Of a stretch of 64,000 nucleotides of DNA, positions 1,817 to 60,089 are shown piece by piece. Where the stretch lies: contig OX387184.1 of the NCBI GenBank assembly GCA_947561395.2, forward strand, positions 44,444,766-44,508,765. The letters run 5' to 3'. A program made the translations under genes and the position numbers. Positions within the stretch are counted from its first letter, which is position 1; each line of letters starts with the position of its first letter. This stretch comes from Buxus sempervirens. Its lineage: Eukaryota > Streptophyta > Magnoliopsida > Buxales > Buxaceae. The notes beneath the pieces were generated by a model, which saw only the letters and a list, made by a program, of their open reading frames with translations, made no database searches and was not told the DNA's origin.

Positions 1817-2046
1817 TGTAGACACCCCAAATTGCACAAACAATCATCAAAAATCATTATCTCCTGGAAAGCCAGCACAGAATTTGAAGAAAATAAATTT
1901 TTGCCAGTATCCGGATACTCAATCTGGATACAAGTGCTCCTCCTCGTATCCGGATACTCATACCGGATACGTGTGGGCCTTAGCGTATCCGATACCATGT
2001 ACCGGATACCTTAAGGCCCTTTGTTATCCGGTCTGATATACCGGAT
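1817..2046 (+). mobile_element. 5' LTR fragment of outer plus-strand element
   Basis: This matches the first ~230 bases of the LTRs at 39912 and 54750, including the terminal TGTAGACACCCC and four hairpin units. There is no polypurine tract before it, as expected for the outer 5' end. It breaks off at about 2046 in the fourth hairpin unit and joins LTR sequence in the opposite orientation. Confidence 0.8.
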
Positions 2047-2048
2047 AA
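1907..2048. repeat. 39-bp-period palindrome array, outer 5' LTR fragment
   Basis: Four 25-bp palindromes start at 1907, 1946, 1985 and 2024, exactly 39 bp apart. Arms are GTATCCGGA/T and (A)CCGGATAC. Two units carry single-base decay (ATCTGG in unit 1, ATCCGAT in unit 3), and the last unit is cut by the junction at about 2047. Confidence 0.8.
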
Positions 2049-2590
2049 TAAGAAGATCTAGGAATGTAAAGACAAAAAATAAAAAGAAAAGTTTAGGCTT
2101 ACCTGAGTGCTGGAGGCGATTCCACAGCGGTTTCCTTCTTCTCTTGGAGTTCTTCTTTGCGAGAATTCAAAACAAGAGTTGTGTGCCATTTGCTCAAGGA
2201 GGAGGCTCCTATTTATAGGCAAGGGCTAAGGTCATCGGTAGACACAAATTAATGTCTAGAACCCCTCCAACCTAAACCCTAAGGTTATTTCCGCGATTTC
2301 CCCTCATTTAATGAGGGACATGATGGTAAAAGTGAAAAGCTCTCGGAAAACCCTAATTTTGAGCAAACTTAAGGTATCCGGTATATCAGGCCGGATAACA
2401 AAGGGCCATAAGGTATCCGGTACAAGGTACCGGATACGCTAAGGCCCACAAGTATCCGGTATGAGTATCCGGATACGGGAAGGAGTACTTGTATCCGGAT
2501 TGAGTATCCGGATACAGGTAAAAGCTTATTTTCTTCAAATTCTGTGCTGGCTTTCCAGGAGATAATGATTTTTGATGATTGTTCGTGCAA
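2047..2590 (-). mobile_element. Inverted LTR fragment
   Basis: Reverse-oriented LTR sequence running from the leader/U5 part (the AGATCTAGGAATG motif) back to about 20 bases short of the LTR start (the TTGTGCAA side). It includes the donor complement ACCTGAG, the TATA complement and four palindromes. Comparable intact sequence is at 5375-5917. It is flanked on both sides by plus-oriented LTR pieces. Confidence 0.75.
2374..2515. repeat. 39-bp-period palindrome array in inverted LTR fragment
   Basis: Units start at 2374, 2413, 2452 and 2491, exactly 39 bp apart. Each is 25 bp with GTATCCGG-type arms. Confidence 0.85.
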
Positions 2591-16835: not shown

Positions 16836-18635
16836 TTTGAAATCTGATGCATTTTAGAAGATTTTCAAGTTCTAAAGCTGGATTGACATATGTTTGAGTT
16901 GAGTTGGTGTCAAAAAATATGACACCTTGGTTTCCTCTTTCATTTTCAAACTTAGGTTAAATCCTGAAAGAATATTTTATTTTATTCTTTTTTGTTTTTT
17001 TTTCTTTGATTTTGTATTTTTGGGAAAATTTCTTATGTTCTTTTCGGGGTGCCTAAGGATTATCCACAGTGTTTTAGGCATTTTATTTTGAAAATTTGGG
17101 CTGAAAAGCCAATTTGTGCATTTTTTGAATGTATCCGGTATACTATTCCGGATAAGAATATGCCTTATTGTATCCGGTCATCATAACCGGATATATGCAT
17201 ATGCCTTTGTATCCGGAAATATATACCGGATATGATTAGAGCTGTTATTAACCGGCCTGAGTTACCGGTTATTGCCGAAATGGCCCTTTTTGACTCATTT
17301 TTTCACCAGATTAGTTTTTTTTTTATTCCCAATTGATGTTCACCTTAATTTGACCTTCAAAACTTGCCCCAAATTGGGCTTGGACATTATATTTGCAAAA
17401 TCCCCAAATTCATGAAAAGAACATGGTTTTACCTTGCCACCTTGTATTACCTTCATTTAATATGGTATTCACATTATACCTTGGCCTGTAAAACCTGCAA
17501 ACGGCCTTCCCACATTTACACCCAATTCCCCAAACGCAATTGTGTGCTTTTAGCTGAAAACGTGTTTCTCCACCTTCAAGCGTATGTTTTTTTGGGTTTT
17601 GGCTTAATTGGCAACTTAGAACTCAAGTCTAGTGATGCCCGGAATCGAATCACAGATCCCATTGTCATCACATCATTGACCTAAACTCTAAGGTAAATGT
17701 TTTCACTTTCGCTTTCCGAAGTCACGACCTCGGTGCGCCAAGCTACACACATTCATGGTTCAACTTCCTAATAGGTAAAGGGTAGGCTGTGCAAATTGTT
17801 TCAAGTGCTCAAGTGCAATTTTAAATTGTGGTAACATTCACAACGTCCCAGCCCCTTGCCACTCTTTTTCGTAGCCATGCATTCAATTTCAAGCCAAGGT
17901 ACGAATGACAAAGATAATGAAGCTAAATACAAGCAAGCAAGCACCAAAACAACTAAATATGCACAAAAAATATTACATGCCCAAAAAGTGTTATACAAAA
18001 CATGTTATTTGTACAAACAATAATTAAATCATGTAAGCATGCTTGAAACTCAAAAGCATTCCCTAAAATCCCAGATTTCATGCTCTTTTTCATGCTCAAA
18101 GTATACCATTTCGACCCCAAATTGGAGCCTAAAATTTTAGCACTACTTGACATGATACCAAAGTGTTTCAATGAGGTAAAACATGCTTAAAATTTCCAGA
18201 AATATGCACTAAAATTTTCAGATTTCTCATGCTCAAAAGTGCATCATTTATACCCCAAATTAATGCCCAAACATTTACCAACTACTTGACATGGTATAAG
18301 GAGAGTTTTGATGGTAAAAACATGCTTGAAAACCCCTATGATGGCTACTGAATTTACCGATTTTTGCTCAATGTTTTCATGCTCAAATAATAGCACTAAG
18401 AACCTCCTAACCCAAGGCAAACAAAAAACAAGTAGGCATGCACAACAAAGTAAGGCCCTAAACATGATCCTTAGCATATCCAAGCATACACACATGCCTT
18501 CATCAATGTAAAATTTAAAAGTATCCCAATCAGATTTAGAATACACCAATATACACCAATAAAGTAAACAAAATAGCAAGCATTCAAAAGTGATGAAAAA
18601 GCATGAATATACACAAAATGGCTTAAATCCACAGA
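16836..18635 (-). other. Leader of A-rev between PBS and minisatellite
   Basis: Noncoding leader, about 1.8 kb. It contains the palindrome array 17131-17272. Small open frames such as 17364-17684 and 18244-18741 show no recognisable domain. They are repeated in the other copies only because the leader is repeated. Confidence 0.6.
17131..17272. repeat. 39-bp-period palindrome array in the leader of A-rev
   Basis: Four 25-bp palindromes start at 17131, 17170, 17209 and 17248, exactly 39 bp apart. The core is TATCCGG...CCGGATA in three units and TTAACCGG...CCGGTTA in the fourth. This is the same architecture as the LTR array, but lies between PBS and gag. Confidence 0.9.
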
Positions 18636-20695: not shown

Positions 20696-20837
20696 GTATC
20701 CGGTATATCAGGCCGGATACACAAGGTCTTTAAGGTATCCGGTATACAATACCGGATACACTAAGCACTGCTTGTATCCGGTATTGATCACCGGATACAA
20801 AGAAATGTACTTGTATCCGGCCTGAGTTGCCGGATAC
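20696..20837. repeat. 39-bp-period palindrome array, subtype B U3
   Basis: Units start at 20696, 20735, 20774 and 20813, each 25 bp with 14-bp spacers. Stem GTATCCGG(T) / (A)CCGGATAC is kept while loops and spacers differ from those of subtype A. Confidence 0.92.
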
Positions 20838-20878
20838 AAGGAAAAAAGCCTTTTTTCCAAATTTTAACACAGACAATA

Positions 20879-26490: not shown

Positions 26491-26639
26491 CTGAGGGAAA
26501 AAAAATGAATAGAACCTGTTAGCTTCCACTTAGCTTGAGTCACACCCCTATATATGTAAACCAGTAGGTTAGGTGAACACCAGCCAGAAAATTTTTTTTG
26601 TTTTTGTTTTTGTTTTTTTGTTTTTGTTTTGAGTTGGAA

Positions 26640-27850: not shown

Positions 27851-29811
27851 TTTTGTTATTTGAAATCTGATGCATTTTAGAAGATTTTCAAGTTCTAAAG
27901 CTAGATTGACATATGTTTGAGTTGAGTTGGTGTCAAAAAATATGACACCTTGGTTTCCTCTTTCATTTTCAAACTTAGGTTAAATCCTGAAAGAATATTT
28001 TATTTTATTCTTTTTTGTTTTTTTTTTTCTTTGATTTTGTATTTTTGGGAAAATTTCTTATGTTCTTTTCGGGGTGCCTAAGGATTATCCACAGTGTTTT
28101 AGGCATTTTATTTTGAAAATTTGGGCTGAAAAGCCAATTTGTGCATTTTTTGAATGTATCCGGTATACTATTCCGGATAAGAATATGCCTTATTGTATCC
28201 GGTCATCATAACCGGATATATGCATATGCCTTTGTATCCGGAAATATATACCGGATATGATTAGAGCTGTTATTAACCGGCCTGAGTTACCGGTTATTGC
28301 CGAAATGGCCCTTTTTGACTCATTTTTTCACCAGATTAGTTTTTTTTTTATTCCCAATTGATGTTCACCTTAATTTGACCTTCAAAACTTGCCCCAAATT
28401 GGGCTTGGACATTATATTTGCAAAATCCCCAAATTCATGAAAAGAACATGGTTTTACCTTGCCACCTTGTATTACCTTCATTTAATATGGTATTCACATT
28501 ATACCTTGGCCTGTAAAACCTGCAAACGGCCTTCCCACATTTACACCCAATTCCCCAAACGCAATTGTGTGCTTTTAGCTGAAAACGTGTTTCTCCACCT
28601 TCAAGCGTATGGTTTTTTTTTGGGTTTTGGCTTAATTGGCAACTTAGAACTCAAGTCTAGTGATGCCCGGAATCGAATCACAGATCCCATTGTCATCACA
28701 TCATTGACCCAAATTCTAAGGTAAATGTTTTCACTTTCGCTTTCCGAAGTCACGACCTCGGTGCGCCAAGCTACACACATTCATGGTTCAACTTCCTAAT
28801 AGGTAAAGGGTAGGCTGTGCAAACTGTTTCAAGTGCTCAAGTGCAATTTTAAATTGTGGTAACATTCAAAACGTCCCAGCCCCTTGCCACTCTTTTTCGT
28901 AGCCATGCATTCAATTTCAAGTCAAGGCACATATGACAATATAATGAAGTTAAATACAAGCAAGCAAGGGAACCAAAGCAACCAAATATGCACACAAGTA
29001 TTACATGCCCAAAAAGTGGTATACAAACATGTCATTTGAATAACAATTGAACCATGGAAGCATGCTTGAAACCCAAAAGCACTCCTTAAAATTCCAGATT
29101 TTCATGCTCTTTTTCATGCTCAAAGTGTACCATTTCTACCCAAGTTGAAGCCCTAAAATTTAGCACTACTTGACATGGTCCAAAAAGTGTTTCGATTTGG
29201 TAAAATATGCTTGAAAACCCCCAAATATACACTGAAATTTCCAGATTTTTTGTTCCTCATTTTTTGTGCTCAAATGACATTGTTTTATGCCCAAATCCAA
29301 GCCTAAAACCCAGAAGCTAACAACATGACATAAAAAGCTTTTAGCTTGGGAAACATATGCTTGAAAATCCCCAAAATTCCCACCAAGCATTTCAGATTTT
29401 TTTTTCATTGTTTTCATGCTCAACTCATGTCATCCCATACCCCCAAGTCCAAATCATGGCATAAAACAACCATTAAGCACAAAAAGCATTATTCATGGGA
29501 AACATGCTTGAATACTCAAAATTTACACCAAATTTCCAGATTTTGAAAATTTCTTTTTCATGGCATAACAACTTAAATCAGAGCATGTTATCACAAAACA
29601 CATCCAAATCATGTTTCAAAATAGGCTTCTTCTAGACACATTTCTAGCCAACATCAAGCCACACATACATGCTTTTGATACATACAAATTTCTAAGCATC
29701 CTAATCTGATTTGAAATATAACAATATGCACAAATAAAACAAACAAAATAGCAAGCATTCAAAAGTGATGAAAAAGCATGAATATACAAAAAAATGGCTT
29801 AAATCCACAAG
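27851..29811 (-). other. Leader of B-rev, mosaic
   Basis: From 27851 to about 28920 the sequence is nearly identical to the A-rev leader (16836-17895). From about 28922 to 29770 it is clearly diverged, although still alignable in places (repeated GCATGCTTGAAA blocks). It becomes similar again near the PBS. No gene is supported; the small frames at 28389-28724 and 29166-29423 have no recognisable domain. Confidence 0.6.
28156..28297. repeat. 39-bp-period palindrome array in the leader of B-rev
   Basis: Units start at 28156, 28195, 28234 and 28273. They are identical in layout and sequence to 17131-17272. Confidence 0.9.
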
Positions 29812-29831: not shown

Positions 29832-32564
29832 TGTGAGACATGGGAAAAAATCACCGGGGTGATCATCCCTCCGTCTGCACACGGGCTCAACGCAAAAATT
29901 GGGAGAGTCGCCACCATTCATGATTTTGGGGTGAGAATGGACACCAAAGAGTTCAAAACTAGGCAAAAATAGCCAAAGGACAAATTCTAGGGTAAAAATA
30001 ACCCTACTTGAAAATCAAATCCAGAGATGGGTAAGGGGATTAGATTATGAACGGGGGAAGGTGTTAGGCACCCCCATTCATCCACACGAAGTGGTTGCCA
30101 AGTGTATATTCATGCAAAAACAAAGTAAGAAAGCTTGCTAAAAATCATGAGAAACCTTGAAAAAGGTCAATGTATGATATTTGCACATGAAGATCCAAAT
30201 GGATTTTAGATCTTCTCTTATGTCAATATCACTTTTGGAGTATTTCAAAAGATGGAAATCAAAGTAGAGGTTGCATAAAACCAAGTTAAATCAAATCCGG
30301 AAAATTCGGTAAAAAGTATGCCATTTGCCTTAAAATCGTTCAAATCCAATTCTGAATTAAACCAAACCAAATCCATTTGAAAGATTAGGGTAAATAAGAG
30401 TCTCTTGCAAAATTTCACTTCATTCCAATGAAAAATCTAGGAGTTATGCTCCTTTGAAGTTGCTGTTGGGGATTTTTAAAAGTAGTAAGTGGGCAACTTT
30501 GGAAAATTGTCTAGAAAAATCCACTACATAGAAATCCACGAAATTTGATGTGATTGAAGTCTGTATGGCCATCTTTCAACAGAAACTAGCCTCATACAAA
30601 AATCCCTTCGGACGTGCCTTGGGTGGTCTCCCGAACAGGCCCCGAAGATCACAGATTTACCCAGAAAAATGCAAATGAGCAGTTCTGAGTAAATCGGCTA
30701 TCAATAATTCAAATGGAATCCAAAAATTATGAAACCATCTGGATTTGAAAATAGACTCAAAAAGGAGTACTCAGAAATAAAAATCACTTGAATCGGACTT
30801 AAAACGAACACTTGGCGGTCCGTCGAAGTGACAAGTTCTGTACTTGGACCTGAACTGTCCACTTAACTTCGACAGAGAAGTGTCAAAAATCGGCTAGATA
30901 GAAATTCATGAAATTTGGTGGACATAAACTAGACAGCCTCACCTTTCCCATGGTTCTGGAATCGCCCCAAAATTCATCCAGATGATGAAGTTACGGACGT
31001 CCGAAGTAAGGGTACAGGTGCTATCAAGCTAAGCCATTTTTGAGTAAAAACCAAATCCGAAAATTGATAAAAAATGAAATTCGTGTAAGATGAACACAAA
31101 TACTTCAAAATCATCCGAAAGGCATTCCAGAATTGATTGAGGCCATTTATTTGAGATTTATCACAATAAATGCAATAAACCCCAAATATGAGCCTATCCC
31201 GCCAAAATAGTGATATGTGTGCAAAAGTGAAAAAACCTAGCAAGATCCATACACATGCATATAGATTTAATAAAATAGGTTCTAGCATAGCCTAGGGTTC
31301 CGTTCCATTATCGTTTCCCTCTGTTCTCTTTAAGATAATCAAGGGTACTTTGAATATGGAACGGTTTACAATCAATCAAAAAGGCCTTATGCTACATAGG
31401 TTCTAGCACTAGGGTCAATCCCCAGTCTCGTTTCTCCTAGATCCGCCTTCACGTTTTACGGCTAGGGGAGTCTTGAGATACTTTGAGCCGGGGAAGGATT
31501 TCCACACATGCAAACAAGGCTTTACACTACAGAAAGGTAGAAGAAGAGATCTAGATCTAGGAATGTAAAGACAGAAAATAAAAAGAAAAGTTGAGGCTTA
31601 CCTGAGTGCTGGAGGCGATTCCACAGCGGTTTCCTTCTTCTCTTGGAGTTCTTCTTTGCGAGAATTCAAAACAAGAGTTGTGTGCCATTTGCTTGAGGAG
31701 GAGCCTCCTATTTATAGGCAAAGGCTAAGGTCCTTGGTAGACACAACTTAATGTCTAGAACCCCCCAACCTTAACCCTAAGGTTATTTCCGAGATTTCCC
31801 CTCATTTAATGAGGGACATGATGGTAACAAGTGATTTCTGTCGGAAAACCCTAATTTTGAGCAAAACTAGCGTATCCGGTATATCAGGCCGGATACACAA
31901 GGTCTTTAAGGTATCCGGTATACAATACCGGATACACTAAGCACTGCTTGTATCCGGTATTGATCACCGGATACAAAGAAATGTACTTGTATCCGGCCTG
32001 AGTTGCCGGATACAAGGAAAAAAGCCTTTTTTCCAAATTTTAACACAGACAATACTTATTTACATGTAATATCGTTTAAGTAAATGTCCTCGTATTTTTT
32101 AATCTCCATTTACTTAAGATATTACATGTAAATAAGCAAACACCCCCCCATTTGAATCCATTAAAAATAGTTCCAGACCCAAATTCCAAGTGAATAAAAA
32201 GTCAACTTTCCAGTTCTAGGCAAAATTCCGATTTTTCAGGTCTGGAAAAAAGGTTCAATATGTTAAAACCAAGGTATTCGCCAAGATTTAAAATCTCAAA
32301 AAATTCTTTTATGCAATAACATGGCTAAAAACCTGATTACCGGGAAAAATTATCTTGAAATCTGGCTTTAAAAAATATTTCATTTTCTGGGGTCAAAAGT
32401 CAACAAAATTCAACCGGAAAAAGTTTGACTTTGCACAAAAGATTGAATTCAGGCCTTTTCCTTTATGGTTTTGGATTCAAATGGGTTAAGTATCTCAAAC
32501 CCAATGCAAAGAACTGAAAATTCCAATAAAATATTTCTCTCCTTCAAGATTTATCAAAAGTCGT
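29832..32564 (-). mobile_element. 5' LTR of B-rev, truncated at its start
   Basis: Nearly identical to 18656-21408 but stops at ...AAAAGTCGT (32564), so the terminal ~20 bases with TGTAGACACC are lost. It carries predicted gag exon 1 (31688-31602), the donor (31602|31601), a palindrome array (31872, 31911, 31950, 31989) and the 30-bp inverted repeat (32055-32136). Confidence 0.85.
31872..32013. repeat. 39-bp-period palindrome array in B-rev 5' LTR
   Basis: Units start at 31872, 31911, 31950 and 31989, exactly 39 bp apart, matching 20696-20837. Confidence 0.9.
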
Positions 32565-32579: not shown

Positions 32580-33981
32580 CCTTTTGCTGAATTCCGAAAA
32601 GCACAGGGATGCATTGTTAAGGGTGCTACAGAGTGCACATGTATCCCAGACCATCGATCCAGACCAGCTTGGCAAAATGGTTGGTCAAATCTTGTCACAT
32701 AATGTGATAAGTTTCTCAGAGGGTGAGATCAGCCCAGGTGGGTGTTATCATGTGGACCCTTTGCACATCACTGTGCTTTGTAAGGGCTGCATGGTTGCAC
32801 GGGTTTTAATTGACAACGGGTCGGCATTAAACGTTTGCCCGTTAATCACTTTTACCAAGCTGGGTCTAGACCAGTCGAGGATCAAACAAAATGGGCGGAT
32901 AGTAAGGGCTTTTGATAGCTCCAAGACCCACTCCCTAGGGGAGATTGAACTGCCGGTCACAATTGGGCCGAATATCTTTAACATCACATTTGAAGTGATG
33001 GATATACCCGCAGCCTTCAATCTGCTCCTAGGAAGGCCGTGGATACATTCGGCTAGGGCAATACCATCCACGCTCCACCAGAGGGTGAAATATATAAGAG
33101 GGCAAAGGGTGATAACAGTCCTAGCTGAAAACTTGGTGCCGCCCATCGTGTCACCTGATGTACCCTTGATCAATGTGGACCTAACCGTCGACAAGATTGC
33201 ATTCCACTCATTTCAATTTGAGGCGGTAAATTACATACCTGGGGGGTGTGAGAAAAAGAAAGAAAAGGGGACCACTGCAGAAAGGATGGTCAAGAAAGTG
33301 ATGGAGAAATACCACTTTCACCCAGGGAAAGGCCTGGGGATCAATCTGCAGGGGATGGTGGAGCCAATCACGGCTAAGAAACTAATCCCAAAGGTAGGGT
33401 TGGGCTTCAAGCCCAGAGGCTGGAGAAGAATGAAACACGAAGAAGGGGAGAGCAGAAGCAAAGGAAAACTCCCGCATCTGAGGGTGAACTTTCCAAAACC
33501 CTCCTACATAATCCAAATTTCTCCTCCCATGGACCAGTCCAAACCCCCATACCGAAATGTCAACCCATTTCAAAAGCCTTCTGTTTCGGTCCTACAACCC
33601 TATAACCCATCTCCAATACTGGGAGCCGTGGATGGGCCTGGACCACAGCCCGAGCAGCAGGTGGACTTTTCTGAAGATGTTGGTGCATTCTTCACCATGA
33701 CTGACGGCGAAAAGACAGGGGCAGACATGGAACTGCCATTTATTGACTGGGCCGCAGTGAAGATTCCAGACAAGGTCATTTCTGAATTGGGCCCCGTAGC
33801 AGAAAAGGGCAGTACCCACCCGGTGATGATGGCATCTGATGCTGGGCTTGAGAAGCAGGCTTTCCCTATTTCCCCTGCTCCCCAAAATTTTGTATTGAAC
33901 AATTGGGAGGAAGCTCCTCTTACCTTTGAAGCAGCGTCTGTGTGGCAAACTGACGCGGCTTCCAAAAAAAAACTCCAATAG
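32580..33981 (+). pseudogene. gag-pro: gag-protease C-terminal part, Fwd-1
   Basis: The open frame from the junction to TAG at 33979-33981 holds the aspartic protease motif LIDNGSALNV, the G-patch-like HPGKGLGINLQG and the IDWAAVKIP tail. The gag core and zinc knuckle are missing because the 5' part was lost at 32579. There are no internal stops, unlike the A-rev and Fwd-2 copies. Confidence 0.85.
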
Positions 33982-34032
33982 TGGAATGCCATTTCCCTGA
34001 AGGTTCTAATGGGCCTCCGTCTTCAGGGGAAT
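33964..34032 (+). promoter_or_regulatory. Predicted -1 frameshift site, Fwd-1
   Basis: A9 run at 33964-33972 in frame as AAA AAA AAA, then CTC CAA TAG. The -1 frame is closed by TGA at 33951-33953 upstream and open downstream through all of pol. A 12-bp stem, 33991-34002 with 34021-34032, starts 18 nt after the run. This spacer is longer than the 5-9 nt typical of known sites. Confidence 0.55.
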
Positions 34033-37000
34033 TATGTTTAGAAGGCCCACAAAAAACCCAAAAAGATTTTTCTACTTTTTCTAGAAAATTTAATTTTTTC
34101 AAAAAGGTCCAAACCACTTATGAACCATATAATCAGACCGAATTGGACCAGGTTGAATATGACTTCGACCTTGAGCTCGACTTTGATCTCATGGGGGTCG
34201 AAGAAGAGACCGAGGTCGAAGAAGAAGACGTTCCAAAAGAAATTGAATACCAATTAGAACGTCATGAAAAGGGGGTCCAACCTAATATTGAGGAGACCAT
34301 ATCCATAAATCTTGGGACCGAAGAGGACCCAAAAATTTTGAAAATCGGGTCATGCTTGTCTGATGTGCAGAAAAATGAAATGTCACAGTTCTTGGCAGAT
34401 TACAAGGATGTGTTTGCTTGGTCGTATCAGGACATGCCGGGGTTGGACACTGACATGGTGGTGCACAAGTTGCCAATTTTGCCAGGGGTTAAGCCGATTA
34501 AGCAGAAGCTGAGAAGATTGAAGCCGGAATGGACCTTGAAGGTCAAGGACGAAGTGGTCAAACAATTCCAAGCTGGATTTTTGGCAGTCTCTACATACCC
34601 AGAGTGGCTCGCAAACATAGTGCCGGTACCAAAGAAGGACGGGAAGGTCCGAATGTGCGTGGATTATAGAGACTTGAATAGGGCAAGCCCAAAGGACGAT
34701 TTTCTGCTTCCACACATCGACATTCTGGTCGATAATACTGCGGTACATAGCCTGTTCTCTTTTATGGATGGGTTCTCGGGATATAATCAGATCAAGATGG
34801 CTAAGGAGGATCAAGAGAAAACAGCATTTATCACACCTTGGGGCACATTCCACTACACAGTCATGCCGTTTGGGCTTAAGAACGCTGGGGCAACATACCA
34901 GCGGGCCATGACTGCACTATTCCACGACATGATCCACAAGGAGATGGAGGTCTATGTGGACGATATGATTGCCAAATCCTGCAGAGAGGAGGACCACTTG
35001 ATCAATCTGAAGAAAGTGTTTGATCGGCTCAGGAAGTACAGTCTACGGCTTAACCCGGCTAAATGCGTCTTTGGGGCTACATCGGGGAAGTTACTTGGGT
35101 TTATAGTGAGCCGAAGAGGAATTGAAATTGACCCGGCTAAAGCCAAGGCCATAATTGAAATGCCAGCACCCAGAACCGAGAAGGAGGTCAGGGGCTTTCT
35201 TGGAAGGATTCAATACATAAGCCGGTTCATAGCACAGCTCACTGCTATCTGTGAACCAATTTTCAAACTTCTGAGGAAGGATAACCCAACGGTCTGGAAT
35301 GAGGATTGCCAGCAGGCATTTGACACAATAAAAAGGTATTTGCTGAACCCGCCTGTGCTAGTGCCACCAACTCCAGGAAGACCACTGATCCTATACTTGT
35401 CAGTGTTGGAAACATCGATGGGATGTGTCTTGGGGCAGCATGATGACACTGGTAGAAAAGAAAGGGCAATTTACTATCTGAGTAAAAAATTCACAGAATA
35501 TGAAGCTAAGTACTCATCATTGGAGAAGACTTGCTGTGCTCTAGTGTGGGCCACTCAGAGGCTAAGGCATTATTTCCTTAGTCACTGCATGCTATTGATA
35601 TCCCGGATGGACCCGCTGAAATATTTATTTGAGAAACCGGCACTAACTGGCAGAACGGCAAAGTGGCAACTACTACTGTCCGAGTTTGACCTCACATACA
35701 TCACCCAGAAGGCGATCAAGGGTCAAGCCATAGCTGATCACCTGGCTGCACATCCTCTGCCAGAATATCAACCCTTGAAGACCAACTTCCCAGATGAGGC
35801 AATTCTGTACACTGAAGAGGAGAACAGTGAGAGTTCCTGGCAGATGTTCTTCGATGGGGCCGCCAACATGAATGGGAACGGAATAGGGGCAGTCTTGGTT
35901 AAACCAGATGGTTCACACATCCCGATTGCAGTAAAGCTGAGATTCCAGTGCACCAATAACATAGCAGAATATGAGGCATGCATAATTGGACTGCAAGCAG
36001 CCATGGATCATGGAGTAGAGGAACTTGACGTATATGGGGATTCGAGTCTTATCATCTTCCAAACAACTGGTGAGTGGAAAACCAAGGATCACAAATTGAT
36101 CCCCTATCACCAGTATTTGGAAGAAATAAACACAAATTTCACTCGAATTTCCTTCAACTATATGCCAAGGGCCAAGAATCAGTTTGCAGATGCTCTAGCA
36201 ACCTTGGCTTCAATGGTCAACATACCAGAAGGAGTAGACATCAGACCACTGGAAATTGAGGTCCGAGATGAACCGGCTTACTGTCTCGTTCTAGAGGGAG
36301 CACAAGAAGAAGAAACACCATGGTTTCAAGATATCAAAAATTTCTTGAACAATCGGAGTCTGCCAGAAAATGCCACGGCTACTGAGAAGAGAACAATACA
36401 GAGATTGGCTGGTCAATTTCTACTAAGTGGTGGACATGTGTACAAAAGGTCACATAACGACATTTTGCTCAGATGTGTTGCCAAGGCCGAATCGGAAAGG
36501 CTGATTGAGACTGTACATGGAGGAGTCTGTGGGCCCCATATGAGAGGACACATGCTGGCAAAGAAGATCCTGAGGCGAGGATATTACTGGACAACCATGG
36601 AGCACGATTGCTGTATACATGTCAGGAGGTGCCATCAATGCCAAATCTATGCAGATAACAAGCATGCACCCCCAGGTGAGCTGCACAACATGACATCACC
36701 CTGGCCCTTCTCTATGTGGGGCATAGATGTCATTGGCATGATCTCCCCTAAGGCATCGAACGGGCACAGATTCATCTTGGTGGCAATTGATTATTTCACT
36801 AAGTGGGTGGAAGCAGCATCATATGCAAATATCACAAGCAACCATGTTATGAAGTTTTTGAAGCACAATATCATTTGTCGCTATGGACTGCCAAGTGCCA
36901 TAGTATCTGACAATGCTTCAAATATTAAGAACAAGGACATGAAGAAAATGTGTGAGCAGTTTCAGATCACCCACCATAAGTCAGCTCCGTACAGGCCAAA

Positions 37001-37568
37001 GATGAATGGGGCAGTAGAAGCAGCAAACAAAAACATAAAGAAAATCATTCAAAAGATGGTAGTGAGCTACAAAGATTGGCATGAAATGCTGCCACTTGCT
37101 CTGCATGCATACAGAACCTCGATCCGGACCTCAACTGGGGCAATCCCATACTCCCTAGTCTATGGGATGGAAGCAGTCTTGCCCGTGGAAGTAGAGATCC
37201 CATCACTCCGAGTGCTCATGGAAGCAAAACTAGAAGAAGCCGAATGGATCCAGTCGAGACATGATCAACTCAAGCTGATAGAAGAAAAGCGGTTGAAAGC
37301 GCTTTGCCATGGACAGTTGTACCAGAAGAGAATGGCCCGGGCTTACAATAAGAAAGTGAGGCCCAGAACTTTCCAAGAAGGAAACTTGGTGCCAAAGAAA
37401 ATTCTACCATTTTTGGAAGATCCTCGTGGTAAGTTCAAACCCAATTGGGAGGGCCCATATGTCGTCAAGAAAGTCCTATCAGGGGGTGCACTCATCTTAG
37501 CAGAAATGGATGGGTCAGATTTTCCTGAGCCCATTAACTCTGATGCGGTAAAAAGGTATTTTCCTTGA
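33981..37568 (+). CDS. pol: pol polyprotein (RT-RNaseH-aRNaseH-integrase), Fwd-1, fully open
   Basis: This frame has 1195 codons beginning at a GTG that overlaps the gag-pro stop. There is no suitable ATG, consistent with entry by -1 frameshifting rather than its own start. Reverse transcriptase: VPVPKKDGKVRMCVDYRDLN, the MPFGLKNAGATYQ block and YVDD (34953-34964). The first RNase H has lost its catalytic acid. The second RNase H keeps FFDGAA, AEYEA, YGDSS and FADALA. Integrase: HHCC zinc-binding domain and D-D-E core (GIDVIG, VSDNAS, GAVEAAN). The C-terminus lacks a chromodomain. It is the only intact pol in the window, yet its element lacks gag and the 5' LTR, so it could act only in trans. 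Confidence 0.9.
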   Translation: MECHFPEGSNGPPSSGELCLEGPQKTQKDFSTFSRKFNFFKKVQTTYEPYNQTELDQVEYDFDLELDFDLMGVEEETEVEEEDVPKEIEYQLERHEKGVQPNIEETISINLGTEEDPKILKIGSCLSDVQKNEMSQFLADYKDVFAWSYQDMPGLDTDMVVHKLPILPGVKPIKQKLRRLKPEWTLKVKDEVVKQFQAGFLAVSTYPEWLANIVPVPKKDGKVRMCVDYRDLNRASPKDDFLLPHIDILVDNTAVHSLFSFMDGFSGYNQIKMAKEDQEKTAFITPWGTFHYTVMPFGLKNAGATYQRAMTALFHDMIHKEMEVYVDDMIAKSCREEDHLINLKKVFDRLRKYSLRLNPAKCVFGATSGKLLGFIVSRRGIEIDPAKAKAIIEMPAPRTEKEVRGFLGRIQYISRFIAQLTAICEPIFKLLRKDNPTVWNEDCQQAFDTIKRYLLNPPVLVPPTPGRPLILYLSVLETSMGCVLGQHDDTGRKERAIYYLSKKFTEYEAKYSSLEKTCCALVWATQRLRHYFLSHCMLLISRMDPLKYLFEKPALTGRTAKWQLLLSEFDLTYITQKAIKGQAIADHLAAHPLPEYQPLKTNFPDEAILYTEEENSESSWQMFFDGAANMNGNGIGAVLVKPDGSHIPIAVKLRFQCTNNIAEYEACIIGLQAAMDHGVEELDVYGDSSLIIFQTTGEWKTKDHKLIPYHQYLEEINTNFTRISFNYMPRAKNQFADALATLASMVNIPEGVDIRPLEIEVRDEPAYCLVLEGAQEEETPWFQDIKNFLNNRSLPENATATEKRTIQRLAGQFLLSGGHVYKRSHNDILLRCVAKAESERLIETVHGGVCGPHMRGHMLAKKILRRGYYWTTMEHDCCIHVRRCHQCQIYADNKHAPPGELHNMTSPWPFSMWGIDVIGMISPKASNGHRFILVAIDYFTKWVEAASYANITSNHVMKFLKHNIICRYGLPSAIVSDNASNIKNKDMKKMCEQFQITHHKSAPYRPKMNGAVEAANKNIKKIIQKMVVSYKDWHEMLPLALHAYRTSIRTSTGAIPYSLVYGMEAVLPVEVEIPSLRVLMEAKLEEAEWIQSRHDQLKLIEEKRLKALCHGQLYQKRMARAYNKKVRPRTFQEGNLVPKKILPFLEDPRGKFKPNWEGPYVVKKVLSGGALILAEMDGSDFPEPINSDAVKRYFP

Positions 37569-39911: not shown

Positions 39912-40001
39912 TGTAGACACCCCAAATTGCACAAACAATCATCAAAAATCATTATCTCCTGGAAAGCCAGCACAGAATTTGAAGAAAATAAATTTTTGCC
40001 A

Positions 40002-40143
40002 GTATCCGGATACTCAATCCGGATACAAGTGCTCCTCCCCGTATCCGGATACTCATACCGGATACGTGTGGGCCTTAGCGTATCCGGTACCATGTACCGG
40101 ATACCTTAAGGCCCTTTGTTATCCGGTCTGATATACCGGATAC
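40002..40143. repeat. 39-bp-period palindrome array, middle LTR
   Basis: Units start at 40002, 40041, 40080 and 40119, exactly 39 bp apart, 25 bp each. In the LTR at 54750 the first unit is collapsed by a 13-bp deletion between CCGGATA direct repeats. The other three keep the 39-bp phase (54866, 54905, 54944). Confidence 0.92.
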
Positions 40144-40299
40144 CTTAAGTTTGCTCAAAATTAGGGTTTTCCGAGAGCTTTTCACTTTTACCATCATGTC
40201 CCTCATTAAATGAGGGGAAATCGCGGAAATAACCTTAGGGTTTAGGTTGGAGTGGTTCTAGACATTAAGTTGTGTCTACCAATGACCTTAGCCCTTGCC

Positions 40300-40308
40300 T
40301 ATAAATAG
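40300..40308 (+). promoter_or_regulatory. TATA box of the middle LTR
   Basis: TATAAATAG, 157 nt after the palindrome array. It would place the transcript start at roughly 40325-40340. The same box in the last LTR is at 55125-55133. Confidence 0.78.
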
Positions 40309-40327
40309 GAGCCTCCTCCTTGAGCAA

Positions 40328-40414
40328 ATGGCACACAACTCTTGTTTTGAATTCTCGCAAAGAAGAACTCCAAGAGAAGAAGAAAACCGCTGTGGAATCG
40401 CCTCCAGCACTCAG
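40328..40414 (+). CDS. Predicted gag exon 1 in the LTR (29 codons), Fwd-2
   Basis: ATG at 40328-40330, then 29 open codons up to the donor CACTCAG|GTAAGC. It ends in phase 0 and would join the gag frame at 45039. It is conserved in every complete LTR, with one Glu/Gly change in subtype B. The ATG is very close to the expected transcript start, so whether it is translated is uncertain. Confidence 0.35.
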
Positions 40415-42190
40415 GTAAGCCTCAACTTTTCTTTTTATTTTCTGTCTTTACATTCCTAGATCTAGATCTCTTTTTCTACCTTTCTGTAGTGTAAAGCCTT
40501 GTTTGTATGTGTGGAAATCCTTCCCCGGCTCAAAGTATCTCAAGACTCCCCTAGCCGTAAAACGTGAAGGCGGATCTAGGAGAAACGAGACTGGGGATTG
40601 ACCCTAGTGCTAGAACCTATGTAGCATAAGGCCTTTTTGATTGATTGTAAACCGTTCCATATTCAAAGTACCCTTGATTATCTTAAAGAGAACAGAGGGA
40701 AACGATAATGGAACGGAACCCTAGGCTATGCTAGAACCTATTTTGTTGAATCTATATGCATATGTATGGATCTTGCTTGGTTTTTTTCACTTTTGCACAC
40801 ATATCACTATTTTGGCGGGATAGGCTCATATTTGGGGTTTGTTGCATTTATTGTGATAAAACTCAAATAAATGGCCTCAATCAATTCTGGAATGCCTTTT
40901 GGATGATTTTAAAGTATTTGTGTTCATCTTACACAAATTTCATTTTTTTATCAATTTTCGGATTTGGTTTTACTCAAAAATGGCTTAGCTTGACAGCACC
41001 TGTACCCTTACTTCGGACGTCCGTAACTTCATCATCCGGATGAATTTTGGGGCGATTCCAAAACCATGGGAAAGGTGAGGCTGTCTAGTTTATGTCCACC
41101 AAATTTCATGAATTTCTATCTAGCCGATTTTTGACACCTCTCTGTCGAAGTTGAGTGGACAGTTCAGGTCCAAGTACAGAACTTGTCACTTCGACGGACC
41201 GCCATGTGTTCGATTTAAGTCCGATTCGAGTGATTTTTATTTCTGAGTACTCCTTTTTGAGTCTATTTTCAAATCCAGTTAGTTTCATAATTTTTGGATT
41301 CCATTTGAATTATTGGTAGCCGATTTACTCAGAACTGCTCATTTGCATTTTTCTGGGTAAATCTGTGATCTTCGCGGCCTGTTCGGGAGACCACCCAAGG
41401 CACATCCGAAGGGATTTTTGTATGAGACTAGTTTCTATGGAAAGATGGCCATACAGACTTCAATCACACCAAATTTCGTGGATTTCTATGTAGTGGATTT
41501 TTCTAGACAATTTTCCAAAGTTGCCCACTTATCACTTTTAAAAAGCCCCAACAGCAACTTCAAAGGAGCATAACTCCTAGGATTTTTATCGGATTAACTT
41601 GAGATTTTGCATGAGCTCCTTATTTATCATAATCTTTTAAATAGAGTTGGGTTGAATCAATTCAGAATTGGATTTGAAGGAGTTCAAGGCAAATGGCATA
41701 CTTTTTACCGAATTTTCCGGACTTGATTCAACTTGGTTTTTGAGCAACTTGTGCTTTGATTTCCATCTTTTGAGATATTTCAGAAATGATATTGACATAA
41801 GAGAGGATCTAAAATCCATTTAGATCTTCATGTGAATATATCATACACTTGTTCCTTTTTCAAGGCTTTTTCATGATTTTTAGCAAGCTTTCTTACTTTG
41901 TTTTTGCATGAATATACACTTGGCAACCACTTCGTGTGGATGAATGGGGGTGCCTAACACCTTCCCCCGTTCATAATCTAATCCCCTTACCCATCTCTGG
42001 ATTTGATTTTCAAGTAGGATTATTTTTATCCTAGAATTTGTCTTTTGGCTATTTTTGCCTACTTTTGAACTCTTTGGTGTCCATTCTCACCCCAAAATCA
42101 TGAATGGTGGCGACTCTCCCAATTTCTGCGTCGATCCCCGTGTGTTGACGGAGGGACGATCACTCCGGTGATTTTCCCATGTCTCACAAC

Positions 42191-42208
42191 TGGCGACTCC
42201 ACTGGGGA
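42191..42208 (+). promoter_or_regulatory. Primer binding site of Fwd-2
   Basis: TGGCGACTCCACTGGGGA, two bases after the LTR end. It differs at two positions from the minus-strand elements (TGGCGACTCTGCTGGGGA). Confidence 0.75.
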
Positions 42209-44022
42209 TCTGTGGATTTAAGCCATTTTGTGTATATTCATGCTTTTTCATCACTTTTGAATGCTTGCTATTTTGTTTACTTTATTGGTGTATATTGGTG
42301 TATTCTAAATCTGATTGGGATACTTTTAAATTTTACATTGATGAAGGCATGTGTGTATGCTTGGATATGCTAAGGATCATGTTTAGGGCCTTACTTTGTT
42401 GTGCATGCCTACTTGTTTTTTGTTTGCCTTGGGTTAGGAGGTTCTTAGTGCTATTATTTGAGCATGAAAACATTGAGCAAAAATCGGTAAATTCAGTAGC
42501 CATCATAGGGGTTTTCAAGCATGTTTTTACCATCAAAACTCTCCTTATACCATGTCAAGTAGTTGGTAAATGTTTGGGCATTAATTTGGGGTATAAATGA
42601 TGCACTTTTGAGCATGAGAAATCTGAAAATTTTAGTGCATATTTCTGGAAATTTTAAGCATGTTTTACCTCATTGAAACACTTTGGTATCATGTCAAGTA
42701 GTGCTAAAATTTTAGGCTCCAATTTGGGGTCGAAATGGTATACTTTGAGCATGAAATCTGGGATTTTAGGGAATGCTTTTGAGTTTCAAGCATGCTTACA
42801 TGATTTAATTATTGTTTGTACAAATAACATGTTTTGTATAACACTTTTTGGGCATGTAATATTTTTTGTGCATATTTAGTTGTTTTGGTGCTTGCTTGCT
42901 TGTATTTAGCTTCATTATCTTTGTCATTCGTACCTTGGCTTGAAATTGAATGCATGGCTACGAAAAAGAGTGGCAGGGGCTGGGACGTTGTGAATGTTAC
43001 CACAATTTAAAATTGCACTTGAGCACTTGAAACAATTTGCACAGCCTACCCTTTACCTATTAGGAAGTTGAACCATGAATGTGTGTAGCTTGGCGCACCG
43101 AGGTCGTGACTTCGGAAAGCGAAAGTGAAAACATTTAACTTAGAGTTTGGGTCAATGATGTGATGACAATGGGATCTGTGATTCGATTCCGGGCATCACT
43201 AGACTTGAGTTCTAAGTTGCCAATTAAGCCAAAACCCAAAAAAACATACGCTTGAAGGTGGAGAAACACGTTTTCAGCTAAAAGCACACAATTGCGTTTG
43301 GGGAATTGGGTGTAAATGTGGGAAGGCCGTTTGCAGGTTTTACAGGCCAAGGTATAATGTGAATACCATATTAAATGAAGGTAATACAAGGTGGCAAGGT
43401 AAAACCATGTTCTTTTCATGAATTTGGGGATTTTGCAAATATAATGTCCAAGCCCAATTTGGGGCAAGTTTTGAAGGTCAAATTAAGGTGAACATCAATT
43501 GGGAATAAAAAAAAAAAACTAATCTGGTGAAAAAATGAGTCAAAAAGGGCCATTTCGGTAATAACCGGTAACTCAGGCCGGTTAATAACAGCTCTAATCA
43601 TATCCGGTATATATTTCCGGATACAAAGGCATATGCATATATCCGGTTATGATGACCGGATACAATAAGGCATATTCTTATCCGGAATAGTATACCGGAT
43701 ACATTCAAAAAATGCACAAATTGGCTTTTCAGCCCAAATTTTCAAAATAAAATGCCTAAAACACTGTGGATAATCCTTAGGCACCCCGAAAAGAACATAA
43801 GAAATTTTCCCAAAAATACAAAATCAAAGAAAAAAAAACAAAAAAGAATAAAATAAAATATTCTTTCAGGATTTAACCTAAGTTTGAAAATGAAAGAGGA
43901 AACCAAGGTGTCATATTTTTTGACACCAACTCAACTCAAACATATGTCAATCCAGCTTTAGAACTTGAAAATCTTCTAAAATGCAACAGATTTCAAATAA
44001 CAAAAAAAAAATGATGAAAACC
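42209..44022 (+). other. Leader of Fwd-2 between PBS and minisatellite
   Basis: Nearly identical to the A-rev leader (16836-18635). The open frame 42265-42600 has no recognisable domain. The palindrome array is at 43561-43702. Confidence 0.6.
43561..43702. repeat. 39-bp-period palindrome array in the leader of Fwd-2
   Basis: Units start at 43561, 43600, 43639 and 43678, exactly 39 bp apart. The first is an AACCGG...CCGGTT unit and the others are ATCCGG...CCGGAT. Confidence 0.9.
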
Positions 44023-44900: not shown

Positions 44901-45038
44901 AAAAAAAAAAAAAAAAACAAAAACAAAAACAAAAAAATTTTTCTGGCTGGTGTTCACCTAACCTACTGGTTTACATATATAGGGGTGTGACTCAAGCTAA
45001 GTGGAAGCTAACATGTTCTATTCATTTTTTTCCCTCAG

Positions 45039-53304: not shown

Positions 53305-54183
53305 CTAGTCTCCTAGCCGCTCCTCAAGCTCCCGAATCCGAGCTGCCTGAGCTGCAATGACTCCTGAAGCCCCCTCTGCAGCGGGATCACTCAAGAAGGA
53401 AATGACCTCATCTGAAAGGGCCTGCCTGATCCGCATACTCCTAAGGCTGGCCAAAGTATCCTGGTACTTCTGCCGGATCATACGGACCTCAAAGCAACGA
53501 GCCTGCCTCTGCTCCTCCAGCTTCTCTTCCACGGCAATACGGCGTGAGATCTGCTCCTCTAGCTGCCTCTCCAGATAAGCGCCCTGTATCCTGAGCTCCT
53601 GGGCCTCCCGTACCCATATCTGCTGAAGCCTCTTATGAGAAGCCCGCTCGGACTCTAGAATGTCCTCATAGGTGGGAGCCAAGACTACTGGAGGATCTTC
53701 GGGTATCGGGGCCTGGGTCTGTATCTGTTCCTTGATCCAGAAGAGATAATCCTTCACATGGGCTTCTGAGAAGACTGGACCATGCATAAAGCGGACATAG
53801 GACCACTCCTTCATCAACCAGGCATTCAGCTTCATAGAAAGGGGCCCAAGACGATCCTCATATCCACATGGGATGATAATCCCCTGGGTCGCATGAAACT
53901 GACGAAGGACCCGCAGAGGAAGATACAGCATTGCATGCTTCAGGCCCGCTAGGATCAGAAAGTTGCGGTCACGGAAGCTAACCACTGTCGCTGCATTGGG
54001 CTTATAAGTGCCAGGCCATCTCACCTGGTCCTCCTGAAGTGAGCCCAAGAAAGTGAACCAACCCTGTTTACCCCCTGGAATATCAGGGCACCCCCTGTTG
54101 CTCATCGAGAAGGGGACTTTTAGACTCGGGAAGAAGTGTCGATTGATCTCTTCAATCTGGCTCAAATGATCAAGTAGCCAAAG
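53305..54183 (-). CDS. Antisense ORF copy 3, open but splice acceptor lost
   Basis: 293 codons homologous to 6452-7330, including the LRVLRQF and CGYEDRLGPL blocks and the C-terminal coiled coil. The internal ATG that could start a 267-residue protein is conserved. The acceptor AG is changed to AA (TTTGCAAC), while the donor AATAGTAAG is kept near 54363-54371. A pure-purine/T-run region (54218-54340) takes the place of the T-rich intron body. The frame is maintained while its splicing signal is lost, so current expression is doubtful. Confidence 0.6.
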   Translation of the reverse strand, partial: LWLLDHLSQIEEINRHFFPSLKVPFSMSNRGCPDIPGGKQGWFTFLGSLQEDQVRWPGTYKPNAATVVSFRDRNFLILAGLKHAMLYLPLRVLRQFHATQGIIIPCGYEDRLGPLSMKLNAWLMKEWSYVRFMHGPVFSEAHVKDYLFWIKEQIQTQAPIPEDPPVVLAPTYEDILESERASHKRLQQIWVREAQELRIQGAYLERQLEEQISRRIAVEEKLEEQRQARCFEVRMIRQKYQDTLASLRSMRIRQALSDEVISFLSDPAAEGASGVIAAQAARIRELEERLGD

Positions 54184-54736
54184 TTGCAAAGGAGAAGGGA
54201 TATTTCAGTATATTGTAAAAAAAAAAAAAGCAAAAAAAAAAAAAAAAGAAAAAGAAAAAGAAAAAAAGGAAAGAAAAAACAAAAAAAAAAAAGAAAAGAA
54301 AAGAAAAAAAAAAGAAGAAGAAAAGGAAAAAAGGAAAAAAGCAAACTTGTGCTATAATTCTTACTATTTTCTCAAAATCCTATTTTTGTCTTGAAATCCA
54401 CCTCACAGCCACGAGAGCTCTGTGGAATTTAGGACAACTTTGGGAAATGTGCCTGGTCAAAAGGATGATATCCACTCAATTTTCAACTTGGTTTGATAAA
54501 AAATCAGTTTTTCAAAAACCCTATTTTTGGGCTTAAAATCCACTTCACAGCCACAAAGGGCTCAGTGGAATTTAAGAATTCTTGGAGAGATGCCCCCTTA
54601 AAGTGAGGGCTTTTTGGCAAATCTCCACTCAAAAATGGTTTTCTACAGAAATTGAATTGAACCGAGCAAATCATGCTCAAGGGAATGCAATTTGGGCTTG
54701 TCTACTCTTTGCAGCTCACTGCTTCGCAGCTCCCAC

Positions 54737-54749: not shown

Positions 54750-57012
54750 TGTAGACACCCCAAATTGCACAAACAATCATCAAAAATCATTATCTCCTGG
54801 AAAGCCAGCACAGAATTTGAAGAAAATAAATTTTTGCCAGTATCCGGATACAAGTGCTCCTCCCCGTATCCGGATACTCATACCGGATACGTGTGGGCCT
54901 TAGCGTATCCGGTACCATGTACCGGATACCTTAAGGCCCTTTGTTATCCGGTCTGATATACCGGATACCTTAAGTTTGCTCAAAATTAGGGTTTTCCGAG
55001 AGCTTTTCACTTTTACCATCATGTCCCTCATTAAATGAGGGGAAATCGCGGAAATAACCTTAGGGTTTAGGTTGGAGTGGTTCTAGACATTAAGTTGTGT
55101 CTACCAATGACCTTAGCCCTTGCCTATAAATAGGAGCCTCCTCCTTGAGCAAATGGCACACAACTCTTGTTTTGAATTCTCGCAAAGAAGAACTCCAAGA
55201 GAAGAAGAAAACCGCTGTGGAATCGCCTCCAGCACTCAGGTAAGCCTCAACTTTTCTTTTTATTTTCTGTCTTTACATTCCTAGATCTAGATCTCTTCTT
55301 CTACCTTTCTGTAGTGTAAAGCCTTGTTTGTATGTGTGGAAATCCTTCCCCGGCTCAAAGTATCTCAAGACTCCCCTAGCCGTAAAACGTGAAGGCGGAT
55401 CTAGGAGAAACGAGACTGGGGATTGACCCTAGTGCTAGAACCTATGTAGCATAAGGCCTTTTTGATTGATTGTAAACCGTTCCATATTCAAAGTACCCTT
55501 GATTATCTTAAAGAGAACAGAGGGAAACGATAATGGAACGGAACCCTAGGCTATGCTAGAACCTATTTTGTTGAATCTATATGCATATGTATGGATCTTG
55601 CTTGGTTTTTTTCACTTTTGCTCACATATCACTATTTTGGCGGGATAGGCTCATATTTGGGGTTTGTTGCATTTATTGTGATAAAACTCAAATAAATGGC
55701 CTCAATCAATTCTGGAATGCCTTTTGGATGATTTTAAAGTATTTGTGTTCATCTTACACAAATTTCATTTTTTATCAATTTTCGGATTTGGTTTTACTCA
55801 AAAATGGCTTAGCTTGACAGCACCTGTACCCTTACTTCGGACGTCCGTAACTTCATCATCCGGATGAATTTTGGGGCGATTCCAGAACCATGGAAAAGGT
55901 GAGGCTGTCTAGTTTATGTCCACCAAATTTCATGAATTTCTATCTAGCCGATTTTTGACACCTCTCTGTCGAAGTTGAGTGGACAGTTCAGGTCCAAGTA
56001 CAGAACTTGTCACTTCGACGGACCGCCATGTGTTCGATTTAAGTCCGATTCGAGTGATTTTTATTTCTGAGTACTCCTTTTTGAGTCTATTTTCAAATCC
56101 AGTTAGTTTCATAATTTTTGGATTCCATTTGAATTATTGGTAGCCGATTTACTCAGAACTGCTCATTTGCATTTTTCTGGGTAAATCTGTGATCTTCGGG
56201 GCCTGTTCGGGAGACCACCCAAGGCACATCCGAAGGGATTTTTGTATGAGGCTAGTTTCTATGGAAAGATGGCCATACAGACTTCAATCACACCAAATTT
56301 CGTGGATTTCTATGTAGTGGATTTTTCTAGACAATTTTCCAAAGTTGCCCACTTATCACTTTTAAAAAGCCCCAACAGCAACTTCAAAGGAGCATAACTC
56401 CTAGGATTTTTATCGGATTAACTTGAGATTTTGCATGAGCTCCTTATTTATCATAATCTTTTAAATAGAGTTGGTTTGAATCAATTCAGAATTGGATTTG
56501 AAGGAGTTCAAGGCAAATGGCATACTTTTTACCGAATTTTCCGGACTTGATTCAACTTGGTTTTTGAGCAACTTGTGCTTTGATTTCCATCTTTTGAGAT
56601 ATTTCAGAAATGATATTGACATAAGAGAGGATCTAAAATCCATTTAGATCTTCATGTGAATATATCATACACTTGTTCCTTTTTCAAGGCTTTTTCATGA
56701 TTTTTAGCAAGCTTTCTTACTTTGTTTTTGCATGAATATACACTTGGCAACCACTTCGTGTGGATGAATGGGGGTGCCTAACACCTTCCCCCGTTCATAA
56801 TCTAATCCCCTTACCCATCTCTGGATTTGATTTTCAAGTAGGATTATTTTTATCCTAGAATTTGTCTTTTGGCTATTTTTGCCTACTTTTGAACTCTTTG
56901 GTGTCCATTCTCACCCCAAAATCATGAATGGTGGCGACTCTCCCAATTTCTGCGTCGATCTCCGTGTGTTGACGGAGGGATGATCATTCCGGTGATTTTC
57001 CCATGTCTCACA
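54750..57012 (+). mobile_element. 3' LTR of Fwd-2, outer right end of the composite
   Basis: 2263 bp, TGTAGACACC to TCTCACA, followed by AACTT. It contains hairpin units at 54866, 54905 and 54944 plus a collapsed first unit, TATA at 55125-55133, the exon 1 ATG at 55153 and a donor at 55239|55240. The donor has no downstream acceptor here. Confidence 0.9.
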
Positions 57013-57017
57013 AACTT
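57013..57017. repeat. Right 5-bp target site duplication AACTT
   Basis: Matches 1812-1816 exactly. Confidence 0.85.
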
Positions 57018-59153: not shown

Positions 59154-59339
59154 ACCGCATTTGAAGCGGTTTGGCCTAAACCGCACTTCAAATGCGGATT
59201 CGATAATCATTTCAATGGACAGCTGGCGGATTCGCATGGATTTGCACACATGGGCAGCTCGACCGCATTTTACATGCGGTTAAGGTGTGACCGCATTTCA
59301 AATGCGGTCGAGGCATGACCGCACTTGAAATGTGGTCAC
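59154..59339. repeat. 28-bp-period palindromes with GACCGCATTT stems, left arm
   Basis: Palindromes ACCGCATTTGAAGCGGT (59154-59170), CCGCACTTCAAATGCGG (59181-59197), ACCGCATTTTACATGCGGT (59262-59280), a 21-bp GACCGCATTT/AATGCGGTC unit (59289-59309) and a 23-bp TGACCGCA/TGTGGTCA unit (59316-59338). The last three centres lie at about 59271, 59299 and 59327, 28 bp apart. They end just upstream of the TATA box. Confidence 0.8.
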
Positions 59340-59882: not shown

Positions 59883-60089
59883 GTATCTGACCTTGGAGGT
59901 CGGATACACTATGCACCCTTTGTATCCGACATTTGATGTCGGATACAAACACAATTATTTCGAAAATTGAATTTTGTCAGCGAATCTGTCAGTGAATCTG
60001 AGCGTGTCTGATGAGCAAATCTTTTGTATCCGAAATATAATTTTGGGTATGAAGGAAAACATGTGTATCCGACCAAATATGTCGGATAC
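59883..60089. repeat. 39-bp-period palindromes with GTATCCGAC stems, right arm
   Basis: Units of 25 bp at 59883 and 59922 (39 bp apart) and at 60026 and 60065 (39 bp apart), arms GTATCCGAC and GTCGGATAC; the unit at 60026 is degenerate. The gap between the pairs is 104 bp, so at least one unit has been lost or altered. Unit length and spacing equal those of the Tat elements' arrays. Confidence 0.8.

Follow-up and report, generated by a model that had tools for sequence, protein, structure and literature searches.

We found that the LTRs of Tat-type Ty3/gypsy retrotransposons carry in U3, upstream of the TATA box, a series of palindromes at a 39-bp pitch, four in the typical array, and that a further series of the same kind is present in the leader. 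The half-sites of these palindromes are almost unchanged over arrays that have diverged elsewhere. We favor, with moderate confidence, the interpretation that the LTR arrays are promoter-proximal binding arrays for a sequence-specific dimeric protein. All array evidence comes from one window, the whole stretch of 64,000 nt that was analysed, in which the following features were located:

39912..42188, plus strand: LTR of the A type (TGTAGACACC...CTCACA), with a purine-rich tract before it and a PBS-like site after it
40002..40143, plus strand: U3 array of four palindromes at a 39-bp pitch, in this A-type LTR
40300..40307, plus strand: TATA box TATAAATA, 156 bp downstream of the array 40002..40143
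1907..2048, plus strand: A-type array in an LTR fragment, which starts at 1817 and stops at the array
2374..2515, minus strand: A-type array in an inverted LTR fragment, TATA box 156 bp downstream
5700..5841, minus strand: A-type array in the LTR starting at 5931 (minus), TATA box 156 bp downstream
20696..20837, minus strand: B-type array in the LTR starting at 21408 (minus), TATA box 155 bp downstream
31872..32013, minus strand: B-type array, TATA box 155 bp downstream
54840..54968, plus strand: A-type array of three full units and a collapsed unit 1, in the LTR at 54750, TATA box 156 bp downstream
17131..17272, minus strand: leader array
28156..28297, minus strand: leader array
43561..43702, plus strand: leader array, with a compensated T-A to A-T pair change in unit 1

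A scan of the window allowing up to five mismatches detected 39 full units, 17 of them distinct, in ten arrays, of which seven are located in LTRs or LTR fragments (1907, 2374, 5700, 20696, 31872, 40002 and 54866) and three in leaders (17131, 28156 and 43561). All 32 unit starts listed in the original prediction carried the palindrome type described there, 39 bp apart inside each array; the list had missed two LTR arrays, with units at 31872/31911/31950/31989 and 54866/54905/54944. When up to three mismatches were allowed, 42 matches were observed, as compared with a mean of 0.05 and a largest count of 1 in 100 dinucleotide-preserving shuffles of the window. Thirty-six of the 42 are units of the Tat-type element arrays, three (59883, 59922, 60065) come from another LTR family, and a further three inside an antisense ORF described below (7155, 38655, 53456) are probably due to chance. 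The outermost unit of each leader array (17248, 28273, 43561) has four mismatches and hence falls outside the 42. In an independent scan, 22 strong inverted repeats were detected in the window, as compared with 5, 7 and 4 in three sequences simulated with a Markov model; array units account for 14 of the 22, and the second LTR family for six more.

The tandem palindrome pattern gave no match in a collection of viral contigs, and matched 21 stretches in a genome-contig collection, every one in a record titled as bacterial; these are taken as unrelated. Ten Clostridiaceae loci (L001, L003, L005, L007, L008, L010, L012, L014, L016 and L020) showed an exact match at a distance of 62-65 bases from the start of the locus, which may be an unrelated repeat of bacterial contig ends.

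The carriers were classified by the order of their pol domains, using the following reading frame:

33981..37568, plus strand: pol, in the order RT, RNase H, archaeal-type RNase H (RVT_3), integrase

Within this ORF, RT_RNaseH was matched at residues 465-569, RVT_3 at 624-742 and rve at 909-1006; the domains of the element are gag (Retrotrans_gag), G-patch, RT, RNase H, archaeal-type RNase H and integrase. In Ty1/copia elements, the integrase stands ahead of RT. Here it follows RT and RNase H, which is not the pol order of Ty1/copia, the superfamily of the Sireviruses. The archaeal-type RNase H is placed between RNase H and the integrase, as is the extra archaeal-type RNase H of Ogre/Retand in the Tat clade (PMC6317226), and by this Ogre/Retand domain order the carriers are assigned to the Tat clade of Ty3/gypsy; elements of this type point to a plant as the probable host. 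A search of the viral contig collection with a 193-aa RT stretch returned ten pattern stretches, none of which was confirmed as a relative. The G-patch domain was found downstream of the gag domain at 48095-48790, 32584-33981 and 12187-15591, and tandem repeats of about 71-147 bp are present in the leaders (15905-16840, 26634-27863 and 43993-44897). A 307-aa ORF antisense to gag occurs in two copies, at 13694-14617 (plus) and 46028-46951 (minus); the scanned copy had no Pfam match, and the ORF may be due to chance.

The array is assigned to U3 because TATAAATA is located downstream of it, at 40300. In six of the seven LTR copies, the distance from the end of the array to this TATA box is 155-156 bp, and the seventh (1907) breaks off at the array. 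The distance from the LTR start to the array is 90 bp in the A type and 571 bp in the B type. No TATA box was present at the corresponding position of the leader array. The LTR at 5931 (3660-5931) is a mosaic, with an A-type U3 and a B-like second half (compared with 18640-21408 and 39912-42190) that is 98-100% identical to the B-type LTR in most 100-column blocks, which suggests that recombination swapped the U3 module. An identical 5 bp (AACTT) is found at 1812-1816 and 57013-57017, beside the start of the first LTR and the end of the last one; the 55-kb block as a whole may thus be a single insertion complex shaped by later rearrangement.

Read in element orientation, the units share the consensus TATCCGG-N9-CCGGATA. 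Of the 39 full units, 34 match it exactly in the two half-sites, and 37 retain CCGG in each of them; the base just outside is G, T or A at the left and C or A at the right. The N9 gap is in part a search criterion, because an N9 pattern served to find the units. Arms of 9 bp around a 7-nt loop, as initially described, apply to only part of the units (11 of the 17 distinct ones have a Watson-Crick pair at 9/17), and the conserved arms are 7 + 7 bp around nine variable bases. The pitch, which had been called exact, is 39 bp in nine of the ten arrays, the exception being the LTR at 54750, in which 13 bp were lost inside unit 1 (now 54840-54851). The sites had also been called phased; in the helical sense this was rejected, because 39 bp corresponds to about 3.7 turns of 10.5 bp, which is not a whole number of turns.

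We compared the A, B and leader arrays with each other. Between A and B, none of 56 half-site positions differed, in comparison with 32 of 78 positions in loops and spacers (Fisher P 1e-9). The corresponding values were 2/56 and 50/78 for A and leader (P 4e-14), and 2/56 and 44/78 for B and leader (P 1e-11). The proposal that the stem is kept while loops and spacers differ was thus borne out, and the selection on the dyads that it implied is well supported. The two leader differences fall in a single pair (4/22 of unit 1), T-A to A-T, and were therefore counted as compensated. Of 28 half-site pairs, 25 are invariant, this one is compensated and two show one-sided changes, both in the LTR fragment at 1907.

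The A (40002) and B (20696) arrays differ by 33 substitutions and no indel, in comparison with 116 substitutions and eight indels in the LTR downstream of the array, although the absence of indels between A and B alone is weak evidence (P 0.10). Over A, B and leader, about 120 substitutions were estimated in non-arm columns, and no indel was seen where 8 to 15 were expected at local indel rates; the resulting P of 3e-4 to 2e-7 is rough, as the distances are near saturation and each type is represented by one array. Homology beyond the arms was supported for leader and B (36/78 columns, 5 of 5000 shuffles as good) and unsupported for leader and A (28/78 columns, 356 of 5000). The orientation of the leader array relative to the LTR arrays is ambiguous, because the reversed leader array scored about as well against them.

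Three options had originally been offered for these arrays. The best fit is given by sites for a dimeric DNA-binding protein, as conservation goes beyond pairing and extends to the sequence of the arms; RNA hairpins and a methylation switch fit less well. Near-invariant half-sites, a set gap, free centres and a set distance to the TATA box make up the footprint that a dimeric factor would leave; the 13-bp deletion in the array at 54840 and a 104-bp interval in the second LTR family are counter-points to a strict layout. We propose that each TATCCGG-N9-CCGGATA site would be bound by one dimer of a sequence-specific DNA-binding protein, probably host-encoded, and that the bound protein would control transcription from the TATA box 155-156 bp downstream, through either activation or repression. 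Inside the element, the leader array may offer this protein another place to dock. Since CCGG is contained in every half-site, binding is potentially methylation-sensitive. Candidate host factors that were considered are of the LBD, GARP/type-B ARR and MYB-related kinds, none of which is named here as the binder.

An alternative explanation is that the arrays act as RNA hairpins, the leader array near the 5' end and the U3 array near the 3' end of genomic RNA, in packaging, in dimerisation or as small-RNA substrates. The predicted folds are very stable, at -81.1 kcal/mol for A (z -10.7), -82.6 for B (z -11.6) and -60.7 for the leader (z -7.7), and none of 200 shuffles was as stable in any of the three; however, strong folding follows from the palindromes themselves, because any DNA palindromes of this kind yield such hairpins. 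Some pairing extends beyond the arms, with 12 tests made: the spacers around unit 3 are complementary in the A-type arrays A40 (30/55 non-arm columns, 3 of 5000 shuffles) and A6 (28/55, 20 of 5000), and the whole B array is partly self-complementary outside the arms (36/78, 56 of 5000), whereas the extended pairing around unit 3 is weak in the leader array (351 of 5000) and in the B array (637 of 5000). Over the alignment, which has only six distinct rows, 85.2% of pairing cells were paired, as compared with 82.8% after shuffling (4 of 500 as high), and no shuffle out of 500 reached the covariation score. Covariation is thus present in places and modest. Selection on structure only predicts many compensated changes, and the arm sequence is nearly fixed. 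Compensated arm changes, for which a search had been recommended, do exist in the window arrays and are rare: 4 of 44 pairs over the four-unit structure, only one of them in the half-sites, a level also reached by 106 of 500 shuffles. A search of Rfam with 39900-45054 gave nothing up to E 0.1. On the other side, an excess of maize small RNAs at Sirevirus palindrome clusters is noted in PMC10760457, citing Bousios 2016. Taken together, we regard hairpin function as unlikely, if worth keeping in mind.

A second alternative involves an ORF of the element itself:

53305..54189, minus strand: ORF of 294 aa in antisense, located between pol and the 3' LTR and subject to purifying selection
6446-7330 (plus strand) and 38507-39388 (minus strand): further copies of the antisense ORF; one of the three copies has two stops

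Its protein might bind the palindromes as an autoregulator or as an anti-silencing factor, in the manner of VANC of Arabidopsis VANDAL, a DNA transposon; we consider this distinctly unlikely. The ORF is selected in its own frame, with omega of 0.14, 0.16 and 0.16 in the three pairs (0.08 for pol), as compared with 0.24 to 2.13 in the other five frames. Its C-terminal part was modelled as one long helix, confident along much of its length, which is taken for a putative coiled coil, in a model of low overall confidence (mean pLDDT 55). A role of the protein as a regulator is possible. However, Pfam revealed no DNA-binding, TRP28 or Transposase_28 domain (DUF7745 matched one of two copies below threshold, E 0.08), none of 1895 candidate homologues reached E <=0.001, and the model had no match in the PDB at E <=0.001. 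The short motif to which VANC21 binds forms arrays in the non-coding DNA of the elements that VANC21 belongs to, which resembles the present case in the motif arrays and in the extra protein encoded by a mobile element; the VANC motifs are arrayed in one orientation and in variable copy number, and palindromes are not mentioned in the passages on these motifs (PMC5735166). A system of the VANC type also has the element-encoded protein remove methylation once it is on the arrayed motif. In Retand, also a Tat-clade element, an antisense ORF with TRP28 lies between pol and the 3' LTR in 97% of clusters, and DNA binding and regulation have been proposed for these proteins (Vicient 2025, PMC11963269). 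The antisense ORF found here shares this location, and differs in having no TRP28 match. In the main text of PMC11963269, "inverted repeat" and "TATA" are absent, and "palindrom" occurs in the reference list only.

The CCGG dyads could instead serve mainly as a methylation-sensitive switch or as a site of heterochromatin nucleation, imposed or exploited by the host. The observed/expected ratio of CpG is 1.19 in the A array and 1.08 in the B array, as compared with 0.60 and 0.59 for the remaining LTR sequence downstream, but these array values derive from small counts (11 and 8). Moreover, the flanking TAT/ATA is about as conserved as CCGG, and a methylation site alone would not need such flanks. 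This explanation therefore seems very unlikely to us as the main function.

Palindromes also precede the TATA box in a second LTR family at 58-61 kb, in which two diverged LTR-like stretches face each other, from ~58072 (plus) and ~61119 (minus). One segment of the plus stretch has two matches in the minus stretch, at 78% and 76% over ~133 bp. Two arrays were located:

59883..60089, minus strand: palindrome array of the other LTR family, with arms GTATCCGAC/GTCGGATAC, 12 bp upstream of a TATA box
59261..59337, plus strand: three GACCGCATTT-type palindromes at a pitch of ~28 bp, 14 bp upstream of the TATA box at 59352

The units of the minus stretch are at 59883, 59922, 60026 (degenerate) and 60065, with spacings of 39, 104 and 39. 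One second-family array has arms that differ symmetrically, with CCGA/TCGG in place of CCGG. Palindromes of different sequence thus sit before a TATA box, and such series are therefore not tied to one palindrome sequence. More palindromes, of the AAACCGTAT and AAACCATAT types, occur farther upstream in the plus-strand LTR, at 58618-58640 and 58763-58817; two of these are separated by 28 bp. Beyond the arms, the best comparison of the second-family array with the Tat-element array matched 15 of 32 columns, and 560 of 5000 shuffles were as good; blastn of the second family against the B LTR gave 50 bp at 80% (E 2e-5), shared arms included. The arms common to the minus stretch and the Tat-element arrays could be homologous or convergent. 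A bolder hypothesis is a Ty3/gypsy control circuit in which the antisense-coded protein would read the U3 and leader palindromes, lifting silencing or tuning transcription, and in which arms and protein would co-evolve between families (CCGG, CCGA and unrelated palindromes); we attach very little probability to it.

That the arrays are a functionless relic of a tandemly duplicated palindrome, kept only through the recency of the copies, is highly improbable: the copies are alike (~92-100% within the A-type arrays, the two B copies identical) and the two arm changes at 1907-2048 are transitions at methylatable C (one CpG, one CHG), as decay would give, but A, B and leader differ at 41-64% of non-arm sites while the arms are still shared, and because of this divergence simple, recent tandem duplication is disfavoured.

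The binding of a dimeric protein is the preferred explanation, and a similar layout in Sireviruses speaks for it. The layout had been thought to be without a published description; the repeated motifs (RMs) of Sireviruses come close to it (Bousios 2010, PMC2829016). As set out in the passages of that paper on the RMs, these are palindromic boxes in many copies, at least eight per element, with a CGG-CCG signature in 12 of 13 RM sequences; most of them are found in the upper LTR half, ahead of a TATA box, extra copies occur in the internal linker of nine env-bearing Sireviruses, and "classic" copia elements are without them. Its authors suggested a role in regulation and called for experimental confirmation. 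The arrays described here likewise combine CGG-CCG palindromes before the LTR TATA box (CCGG in both half-sites of 37/39 units, TATA box at 155-156 bp in 6/7 LTRs) with a second internal cluster, and the citrus RM AATCCGGCTWRCCGGATT has the half-site ATCCGG/CCGGAT in common with them (PMC2829016). An element has four units per LTR and four in the leader, or eight if one LTR is counted together with the internal cluster, which is how the table of PMC2829016 counts. Unlike the Sireviruses, which are Ty1/copia elements, the carriers are Ty3/gypsy elements with four units, a 39-bp pitch and an N9 gap, and the internal cluster precedes gag, whereas that of Sireviruses precedes the env-like gene (PMC2829016). 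The superfamily, the 39-bp pitch, the N9 gap and the leader site are thus new here with respect to the Sirevirus layout. Tobacco Tnt1 has tandemly repeated U3 boxes with a possible role in transcription; it is a Ty1/copia element, and in the passage on them the boxes are not presented as a regular palindrome series (PMC3601003). Among the matches listed from the open-licence PMC literature, there was no description of such arrays in Ty3/gypsy LTRs: in PMC11302176, on einkorn centromere elements, "palindrom" occurs in one reference only, and the palindromes treated in PMC6911290 are located at insertion sites, outside U3.

If the preferred explanation is correct, promoter-proximal palindrome arrays with similar CCGG half-sites would be present in both great superfamilies of plant LTR retrotransposons, which would indicate a common host factor or a common constraint, and a probe derived from the array could recover the factor. 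The window itself, with its A, B and leader arrays and the second LTR family, provides a comparison set for deciding which bases matter.
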